Below, piece after piece: positions 31,991-35,344 of a stretch of DNA of 64,000 bases. Both the position numbers and the translations under genes were made by a program. Source of the stretch: Pseudonocardia ammonioxydans (GTDB lineage: Bacteria > Actinomycetota > Actinomycetes > Mycobacteriales > Pseudonocardiaceae); the NCBI RefSeq assembly GCF_900115005.1, contig NZ_FOUY01000032.1:1-64000 (forward strand). Reading direction: 5' to 3'. Position 1 is the first letter of the stretch. Each line of letters begins with the position of its first letter. The notes beneath the pieces were generated by a model, which saw nothing but the letters and a program-made list of their open reading frames with translations, was not told the DNA's origin and did no database searches.

Positions 31991-32086
31991 TCCGCGCGAC
32001 CTCCGTCCAGGGGAAACGCCTGTGGCGTCGAACACGGGTTCGAGGTGTCCCCAGGTGTGCACGCCCCTGTGGACAACTCGTGTGGA

Positions 32087-32368
32087 TCACCGGCGACGGG
32101 TGCGCCGGACCGTGGGCCGGTCCATCCCGTCGCCGGTCATCTCCCGGGCGATCCGTACGACGTGCGCGCGGACGTCCGGGTCCAGGTCCGCCGTGCGCAG
32201 GGCCAGCAGCTCGAGGATCGATGCCATGCCGAACGCGTACTCGGGGCGGGGCAACACCCCGGCGTAGTGCGCCTGGACCGCGTCGTGCCGCAGTGCCGCC
32301 GCGGCGCCGAGCACCGTCTCGCGGTCGGTGCGCAGGGCGGAGAGCCGGCGGCGTTCGTGGGTGTTCAT
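32087..32368 (-). CDS. Hypothetical small helical protein
   Basis: A 93-residue Arg-rich soluble protein: MNTHERRRLSALRTDRETVL, LRHDAVQAHYAGVLPRPEYA, GMASILELLALRTADLDPDV, VVRIAREMTGDGMDRP. No recognised family. It stands alone, after the POT gene in the opposite direction; 32369-32499 downstream of the DUF1772 gene holds no other gene. Confidence 0.6.
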   Translation of the reverse strand: MNTHERRRLSALRTDRETVLGAAAALRHDAVQAHYAGVLPRPEYAFGMASILELLALRTADLDPDVRAHVVRIAREMTGDGMDRPTVRRTRRR

Positions 32369-32499
32369 GCTCCCCCGGGGGTCGGGCGGTCGGTACGGGC
32401 TCGCCCGGGGGAGCGGGCGCGGGACCAGCGTGCACTCCCGCACCGTCCGGGGCCAGTGGTGTCCCCGAGATGTCGCACACACGTTCGACGTCGTGCGCC

Positions 32500-33912: not shown

Positions 33913-34914
33913 ATGCCCGCCGCGCCGCCGTTCCCGGTCGCCGATCCGCTCGGCGAGGCGCTGCACGTGCTGCGGATGGACGGCGTCTTCTACTGCCGCT
34001 CCGAGCTCGGCGAGCCGTGGGGGATGACGCTGCCCGCGACACCCGGCTGTCTCTGGTTCCACGTCGTCACCTCGGGTGGCTGCCGGCTGACGGTGGAGAG
34101 CGGGGACGGCGGCCGGGGCACCGAGCACGTCCTGCGGCCGGGCGAGCTGGCGCTCGTCCCGCACGGGGCCGGGCACGTGCTGCGCCACGCGCCGGACGCG
34201 TTCGCCCCGGACATCCGGTCGATCCCGCACTCGATGCTCGACGGTCGCTACGCCCTGCTGCGGCACGGCGGCGACGGTCCGGTGACCCGGATGGTGTGCG
34301 GCGCCGTCCGCTTCGGGCACCCGGCGGCCCGTGAGCTCGTCGAGCGGTTGCCCGGCCTGATCCGGGTCGAGCCCTCACCACGGGGCGACCGCGTCCAGGA
34401 CACGCTGCGGCTGATCGCGGCCGAGATCGAGGACGGACGGCCGGGCAGCGAGGCGGTGATCACCCGGCTGGCCGACGTGCTGGTCATCCAGGCCGTCCGC
34501 GACCGGCTGGAACAGGACGCGGACGCCCGCACCGGCTGGCTCGGCGCGCTGGCCGACGAGCGCATCGGCCACGCGCTCGCCGCGGTGCACCGTGCGCCGG
34601 AACGGGCGTGGACGGTCGCGACCCTCGCGGCGACGGCGGCGATGTCCCGTTCGGCGTTCGCGGCCCGGTTCACCGACCTCGTCGGCGAGCCCGCGATGAC
34701 CTACGTGACGCGGTGGCGGATGCACGCGGCCGTCGACGTCCTGTCGGGGGGCGATGCGACAGTGGCCGAGGTCGCGTACCGGTTCGGCTACCGGTCCGAG
34801 GCGGCCTTCGCCCGGGCCTTCGTCCGCGTGGTCGGTGAGCCGGCGGGGCGGGTGCGCCGGCGGGCCGCCGGGCGTGGCCCGGCCGGGCTGGAGGCGTTCG
34901 CGACGCCCGGCTGA
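33913..34914 (+). CDS. AraC-family regulator with cupin (AraC_binding-like) domain
   Basis: A 333-residue protein. The N-terminal cupin-like part (WFHVVTSGGCRLTVESGDGG, LRPGELALVPHGAGHVL, MVCGAVRFGHPAARELVERL) is of the AraC_binding_2/6 type. The C-terminal double HTH is clear: TVATLAATAAMSRSAFAARF, VTRWRMHAAVDVLSGGDATV, AEVAYRFGYRSEAAFARAFV. It faces the nmrA/DUF1772 pair across a 136-base AT-richer spacer. Confidence 0.85.
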   Translation: MPAAPPFPVADPLGEALHVLRMDGVFYCRSELGEPWGMTLPATPGCLWFHVVTSGGCRLTVESGDGGRGTEHVLRPGELALVPHGAGHVLRHAPDAFAPDIRSIPHSMLDGRYALLRHGGDGPVTRMVCGAVRFGHPAARELVERLPGLIRVEPSPRGDRVQDTLRLIAAEIEDGRPGSEAVITRLADVLVIQAVRDRLEQDADARTGWLGALADERIGHALAAVHRAPERAWTVATLAATAAMSRSAFAARFTDLVGEPAMTYVTRWRMHAAVDVLSGGDATVAEVAYRFGYRSEAAFARAFVRVVGEPAGRVRRRAAGRGPAGLEAFATPG

Positions 34915-34974
34915 CGACATGCCGGGGGGTCGTACGCATGTTCGACGCAGGGGTGCTACGCTGCATCGACACGT

Positions 34975-35300
34975 CAGGGGAAGGAGTCGATCCGCTCGTA
35001 TCGAGCGGTATCGCATCGGAGCTAGACGGCGGTAGGCGACCTCATCGAGCGTGCTCGATGACGGGGTATCGCGCTGTCTCGGTGGAGGGTTAGAAAGTCG
35101 TATATACGGCGATCGGACGCCGTTGATGCGTGAGTATCGGTCTGTATCGGATCAGTCCGATACTCCGGTAGAGAGTCGCATCGACGAGTGCCGATCGCTG
35201 TATGCCGGTTTCTAGCGCGAACCCGAGACGGCCCGATGTACCGCGATCACCGGGTCCGCTCGGGTTCTCTGCTGCGCTCTACCCGTAGCCGTAGACGCCG
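34975..35300. other. Low-GC, hairpin-rich intergenic locus, candidate structured RNA
   Basis: The gap 34915-35344 has no credible gene. 35041-35220 is about 57% G+C, far below its neighbours. Perfect short inverted repeats are packed in it: CCGCTCG-TAT-CGAGCGG (34992-35008), CATCGAGC-GT-GCTCGATG (35043-35060), CGTATATACG (35099-35108), GGCG-N6-CGCC (35108-35121), AGTATCGG/CCGATACT (35133-35140 with 35157-35164, competing with a second GTATCGG at 35144), and AACCCGAG/CTCGGGTT (35220-35227 with 35259-35266). GTATCG recurs throughout. It matches no tRNA, tmRNA, RNase P, 4.5S or riboswitch that I recognise. It may be a regulatory RNA or a multi-site protein-binding region. Confidence 0.45.
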
Positions 35301-35344
35301 GTATGGACCGGAAGCGACGCACCGGGGGTCCGCCGGGCGCGGCG

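Follow-up and report, generated by a model that had tools for sequence, protein, structure and literature searches.

A tandem array of 60-bp dyad units in Pseudonocardia ammonioxydans, probable operator-like sites for an AAA+ ATPase

Five tandem units at a hairpin-rich locus

A hairpin-rich intergenic stretch (34,975–35,300) in a 64,000-nucleotide piece of the Pseudonocardia ammonioxydans genome (here called the window) was analysed together with related genomes. A 60-bp dyad unit was found to be repeated five times in tandem over 34,988–35,316, and in other genomes of the family such a unit stands at the start of a gene for an AAA+ ATPase, here called D0. Judged from sequence, the locus is probably an array of five operator-like duplex sites for D0, which would autoregulate and load onto such arrays. 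A sequence-only reading of the window had proposed either a new RNA or a multi-site element within 34,975–35,300; the multi-site element was borne out, although it is longer than proposed.

Each unit comprises three half-sites with a T-x-T core, spaced by exactly 10 bp, then a centre of 13 bp and three inverted half-sites, following the pattern CGATC ..GTATC ..GTCTCG ..centre.. CGCTAGA ..GTAGA ..CGATC. A ten-letter test of this layout (T at positions 0, 8, 10, 18 and 20; A at positions 33, 35, 43, 45 and 53), run on both strands of the window, scored 8–10 of 10 at the five places of the array and nowhere else 8 or more. The units are as follows:

34988..35047, + strand: unit 1, ten-letter score 9/10, profile 44.8 bits, E 9.6e-11
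35056..35115, + strand: unit 2, ten-letter score 10/10, profile E 1.2e-8
35124..35183, + strand: unit 3, ten-letter score 10/10, profile E 1.1e-7, centre GTATCGG/GTATCGG/CCGATAC
35190..35249, − strand: unit 4, ten-letter score 8/10, profile E 3.2e-9 on the higher-scoring minus strand, the unit being quasi-palindromic
35257..35316, + strand: unit 5, ten-letter score 9/10, degenerate yet in register, missed by the profile, 28 bp short of the ECF sigma factor gene's stop codon

In the array of another genome (G014) the profile does call a fifth unit. The 60-bp unit became visible through short single versions of it, which a DNA search found in a sister genus, identified as Actinomycetospora from identical motifs in named contigs; the array region was recovered in six further genomes of the genus via a conserved upstream block. 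Thirty-two units from arrays and singles aligned without gaps over 60 columns, and in 128 non-redundant units (drawn from 382 profile hits, some of which repeat one place through overlapping loci) the length was constant and the half-sites were conserved, the letters between them being free. The A+T letters of the window-type array stretches showed a 10-nt period (lag-10 z 8.1). Three units (L191:7768-7843, L182:8073-8148 and L224:7201-7244, the last with 18-nt arms) are near-perfect inverted repeats including their spacers, and are more symmetric than the average unit.

The low G+C content that had drawn attention to the stretch is real (61.3% for 34,975–35,300 versus 73.9% window-wide, and 58.5% for 35,000–35,199), with values as low in 11 of 3184 sliding 326-bp windows; the 57% originally given was too low. 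Four perfect inverted repeats with arms of at least 7 and loops of 3–30 were found in the stretch, compared with 0.91 ± 0.94 in 300 shuffles, five of which reached four; the six or more that had been claimed would require shorter arms.

The unit is associated with the start of the D0 gene

D0 is an AAA_16 ATPase of about 396 residues with a predicted C-terminal winged helix. It was the only gene cluster common to all 16 unit loci from other genera, 13 of which carried a profile-called unit at the D0 start and the remainder one recognised by the ten-letter test, and it was also found among units in the sister genus and, within the genus, in the second gene context (cluster C1). Upstream of D0, the ten-letter score was 6–10 in 43 of 43 loci (p ≤ 0.04 in 42), many of them congeneric and non-independent, and the pattern ended 0–3 bp before the start codon, as set by a conserved N-terminal motif, in 42 of them and 18 bp before it in G126. 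Outside the family, Nonomuraea showed the 10/10 pattern at the D0 start with units directly 3' of the stop codon, and Nocardia showed 8/10 at the start (p 0.013) with weak units past the stop. A chromosomal-type D0 (69% identity) with a unit at its start was also present on MT837995.1 (L228), a scaffold labelled Bacteriophage sp. that is possibly a misfiled actinobacterial contig.

The gene was present in 26 of 26 genomes searched, with a mean column identity of 83% over 18 sequences, and a sequence search returned at least 8000 candidates, all at E ≤ 0.001. The D0 of P. ammonioxydans lies outside the window (G000:C81:157,655-158,878). D0 matched no NCBIfam family at cut-off and, by sequence, no PDB chain; PADLOC hits were weak only. 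Against the Orc1/Cdc6 model TIGR02928 (cut-off 181.3 bits), two of four D0 proteins scored 15.8 and 21.1 bits and the other two gave no match. The predicted structure has the AAA+ core and C-terminal winged helix typical of Orc1/Cdc6, and, among the matches listed, most of its chain shares the fold of the archaeal SSO1545/PABY2304-type ATPases. In a first model, built from 18 closely related sequences, the AAA+ part was predicted poorly (pLDDT, the predicted local distance difference test, of 52).

Units recur across the family and, where measured, lie near dnaA

Within the genus, searches with a sequence-only profile found units in at least 55 of the 62 genomes (E ≤ 0.01); they also found them in 18 of 18 genomes of the sister genus and in at least 118 of 297 genomes and 24 of 46 genera of the family (E ≤ 0.001), where weak hits may include chance. 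Three of 11 pattern matches in the sister genus (L049, L051 and L054) resemble chance matches in coding DNA. Among the matches listed, copies cluster mostly within about 10–140 kb per genome, the exception being G275 with unit groups 540 kb apart. Two gene contexts were distinguished, the window type (eight genomes) and the surroundings of the D0 gene.

dnaA was located in 20 genomes; in 14 of these the position of a single unit or array was measured, and it lay 68–424 kb from dnaA (1.1–5.8% of the chromosome), upstream of it in 13. The six genomes outside this set were G071, G009, G062 and G063, the last two with units about 273 and 116 kb from dnaA on the same contig, and G000 (P. ammonioxydans) and G001, in which dnaA is on another contig. 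In G002 C1, the array and D0 lie on the opposite side of dnaA compared with the remaining genomes measured, which hints at a rearrangement near the origin; the same genome has about 30 near-identical weak hits to the DnaA model, perhaps a transposon ATPase.

That the sites are purely autoregulatory, the array being an incidental decoy copy without a function at the level of the chromosome, would account for the pattern at the D0 start. We consider this alternative unlikely, though it is the strongest of those weighed, as the eight divergent window-type arrays each contain three to five called in-register units and are placed where genes end, without an obvious target gene for regulation, and as the sister genus and other genera have extra single units at the ends of genes nearby.

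Half of the sampled plasmid relatives of D0 keep the site geometry

Twenty plasmid-borne relatives of D0 (37–46% identity; Actinomycetota, Pseudomonadota and Chlamydiota), picked for diversity from 116 records, were examined for a site with 10-bp steps and a 13-bp centre, a geometry fixed beforehand on chromosomal units. This geometry was found at p ≤ 0.02 in ten of them (eight Actinomycetota and two Pseudomonadota), five scoring 10/10; the first four records had been inspected by eye before the test was written, and without these eight of 16 were significant. When periods of 8–12 were scanned in combination with centres of 9–18, the excess over shuffles peaked at 10/13. The Chlamydiota case scored 8/10 (p 0.15). 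The retention of the geometry while the letters shift as the protein diverges points to D0 itself as the reader.

The plasmid sites also bear on the idea that another DNA-binding protein occupies the units and regulates D0 and a few neighbours, the array being a site of that regulator. Some neighbouring genes are of the TetR type, and AAA+ proteins of the size of D0 need not bind DNA specifically. We nevertheless regard this explanation as improbable, because D0 alone among gene clusters recurs at every other-genus unit locus and because a host regulator would not explain why distant plasmid relatives in Actinomycetota and Pseudomonadota keep the geometry with altered letters.

Among the records, a D0 paralogue with a 10/10 operator-like site on pROB01 of R. 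opacus (L226) adjoins a transposon module of the TnsA/DDE/TniB type. Two entries filed as plasmids, NZ_LN868939.1 (L223, 2.7 Mb) and NZ_LT559118.1 (L224, 11.9 Mb), are nearly unannotated in PLSDB and look chromosomal.

The units fit duplex DNA better than RNA hairpins

In an RNA hairpin, paired letters are expected to change together and the length of the loop may vary. Among 29 dyad pairs in the 128 non-redundant units the highest z was +2.3, with no covariation, and the pairs 24/35 (z −4.3) and 14/45 (z −2.8) were anti-complementary; units tend to combine one TCTCG and one TCTAG half-site. In 35 units, spacer-letter pairing was 142 within units versus 137 ± 7.4 between units, and no covariation was seen between a right half and the left half that follows it (z −1.2 over 21 junctions). 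The spacing was invariant across units, loop included. An RNAalifold consensus of seven sequences contained double changes in 24 of 68 pairs, a signal that was lost in the unit-level tests. The constant unit length, the lack of dyad covariation and the anti-complementary pairs fit duplex DNA and not hairpins, and the stretch most likely represents tandem DNA docking sites rather than an RNA gene. A reservation concerns folding: the z of the G000 and G061 arrays is about −7.5, compared with −3.6 ± 1.6 for chimeric arrays of units from different genomes, and seven real arrays have a mean fold z of −4.8 versus −1.5 for arrays sampled from a position weight matrix, an excess that is partly unexplained.

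One alternative is a non-coding RNA, structured or acting as a switch, that would be transcribed from the conserved extended −10-like element at 34,954; switching had been suggested by two GTATCGG arms (35,134 and 35,144) that could compete for one CCGATAC (35,157). These letters are present as described, but they make up the centre of unit 3, where two half-sites in tandem, at the usual 10-bp step, face a single inverted one, and the covariation checks do not support the switching interpretation. In favour of an RNA are the self-complementarity above dinucleotide shuffles on both strands (RNA folding z −7.06 on the plus and −7.05 on the minus strand), the better folding of the G000 and G061 arrays than of chimeras, and a conserved promoter-like block before unit 1. 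We consider an RNA very unlikely, since, besides the missing covariation and the fixed length, predicted folds are unlike among relatives, the single units of the sister genus lack the promoter-like block, neither a terminator nor a sigma-70 match was found, and the similarity of inverted half-sites is no higher within an array than between arrays of different genomes (0.433 in both cases). In agreement with the statement that no known structural RNA is recognisable, no Rfam family reached its gathering score in the window; the sole match was at chance level (E 9.5, 12.1 bits versus a cut-off of 88). A 6S-like RNA of the Ms1 type was likewise without Rfam support, and a candidate terminator at 35,220–35,268 shows no terminator pattern, its sequence belonging to units 4 and 5.

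A dispersed mobile repeat (a miniature inverted-repeat transposable element or repetitive extragenic palindrome) that landed at the locus would be palindromic, intergenic and present in several copies per sister-genus genome, as observed, but is hardly credible given the clustering of copies described above, the fixed spacing with free letters between half-sites in place of scattered copies with a conserved interior, and the tie of the pattern to the D0 start across many genera. A replication terminus was also rejected: dif-like sites (found in 17 of 20 genomes) are mostly megabases away from the units, and the single dif-like hit in G067 is 354 kb from the units yet not opposite dnaA.

Flanking genes and LexA-like boxes

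As the sequence-only reading had it, the array is flanked on the left by a gene of the Cupin_6/AraC type (+ strand, ending at 34,914) and on the right by a convergent sigma-70-type (ECF) gene (− strand, stop codon 35,345–35,347), for which a SnoaL_2 match was sub-threshold. Two further features precede unit 1:

34930..34945, + strand: inverted repeat TCGTACGCATGTTCGA, 42 bp before unit 1
34954..34962, + strand: TGCTACGCT, part of the conserved upstream block

We take TCGTACGCATGTTCGA to be a LexA/SOS-box-like element. Three perfect TCGNACNNNNGTTCGA boxes occur in fixed order in eight of eight window-type genomes (32,028–32,043, 32,473–32,488 and 34,930–34,945 in the window), the boxes beside the array showing no substitution in any of the eight, and the distance from the third box to unit 1 is 42 bp in five genomes and 54 bp in three. 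The middle box is upstream of a small minus-strand open reading frame (about 93 aa, 32,087–32,368) with no significant Pfam match. TGCTACGCT is presumably an extended −10-like element, although a sigma-70 consensus scan found no promoter at 34,954–34,962. The block GTTCGACNCANGNNTGNTACGCTGC (at most one mismatch) gave one hit each in seven of the 62 genomes of the genus, including P. ammonioxydans itself, with no control hits; the eighth window-type genome, G073, carries the variant TGCTGCGCT. An extended −10-like TGNTACGCT follows the boxes in seven of eight window-type genomes, the promoter-like block lying 23 or 35 bp before unit 1.

A proposed model for D0 and the arrays

We infer that D0 is the binder, that its binding represses, and that it loads onto arrays. 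The winged helices of D0 would read the T-x-T half-sites on successive turns of one DNA face, 10 bp apart, with three winged helices per half-unit and six per unit, so that two opposed trimers would meet at the 13-bp centre; assembly of the oligomer may be controlled by ATP. A single unit just before the start codon would lead to repression of D0, and at arrays the consecutive units would seed a larger assembly, which may serve either to titrate D0 or as origin-proximal anchoring or organisation.

Several observations weigh against this model. In P. ammonioxydans, the operator-like pattern of D0 keeps its centre and right half (6/10, p 0.03), half of the operator having decayed in the window-type clade, and the array lies 150–320 kb from D0 in seven window-type genomes and on a different contig in P. 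ammonioxydans; any link between array and D0 in this clade would thus act in trans. Conserved D0 synteny and the restriction of the window-type array to one clade mean that few independent events stand behind the origin proximity. Half of the plasmid homologues (10/20) lack a significant site, and two of these cases (M. gordonae and Gordonia) look by eye as if they had a 14-bp centre. Finally, the LexA-like box beside the array has no place in the model.

Origin-linked site clusters are known from other bacteria, and for the way D0 might work the nearest parallels are ram/RacA, BldC filaments and datA. At the datA locus of E. coli, which titrates DnaA, sites for an AAA+ protein form a non-coding cluster linked to the origin; the array resembles it in being non-coding, origin-linked and composed of sites for a candidate AAA+ binder, and differs in site geometry, titration at the array being conjectural. 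parS is a shorter palindrome and ParB belongs to a different protein family, and archaeal Orc1/Cdc6 proteins bind origin recognition boxes. As expected of a locus like ram, parS or datA, the sites are concentrated near the origin in the 14 genomes measured (1.1–5.8% from dnaA). In Bacillus subtilis, short ram motifs bound by RacA, an oligomerising helix-turn-helix protein, are dense near the replication origin (PMC6593407); the array shares the presence of site motifs near the origin and differs in sequence, in its six-half-site 60-bp unit, in its tandem arrangement and in that the candidate binder is an AAA+ protein whose gene has an operator. Origin-proximal sites of a DNA-binding protein are also described for ParB-parS (PMC4852455, PMC7022226). 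Streptomyces BldC, a winged helix-turn-helix protein, binds tandem direct repeats head to tail with 9 bp per protomer (PMC5859096); the unit is likewise actinobacterial, with tandem direct repeats and a winged-helix candidate reader, whereas BldC is MerR-like with the winged helix-turn-helix domain only, and the unit has 10-bp steps with three repeats followed by three inverted ones. The regulator Orc1-2 (PMC9738581) is, with archaeal Orc1/Cdc6, among the systems that come closest. In the open-access literature, by titles and abstract openings among the matches listed (most subscription literature lay outside this scope), neither the 60-bp unit nor its pairing with D0 was described.

The analysis ties a hairpin-rich gap to one uncharacterised, highly conserved ATPase and provides a precise candidate DNA target for D0, whose relatives occur on plasmids of at least three phyla. 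A broader possibility, which we offer tentatively and hold to be doubtful, is that D0 is the founding member of a family of Orc/Cdc6-like AAA+ proteins that is widespread in bacteria and has its own six-half-site unit, acting in origin-proximal maintenance of chromosomes and plasmids or in initiation control beside DnaA and ParB, with the window array as a centromere- or titration-like locus. If D0 does bind these sites, the biology of bacterial origins would gain a new player, an AAA+ winged-helix protein that is site-specific and has arrays close to oriC.
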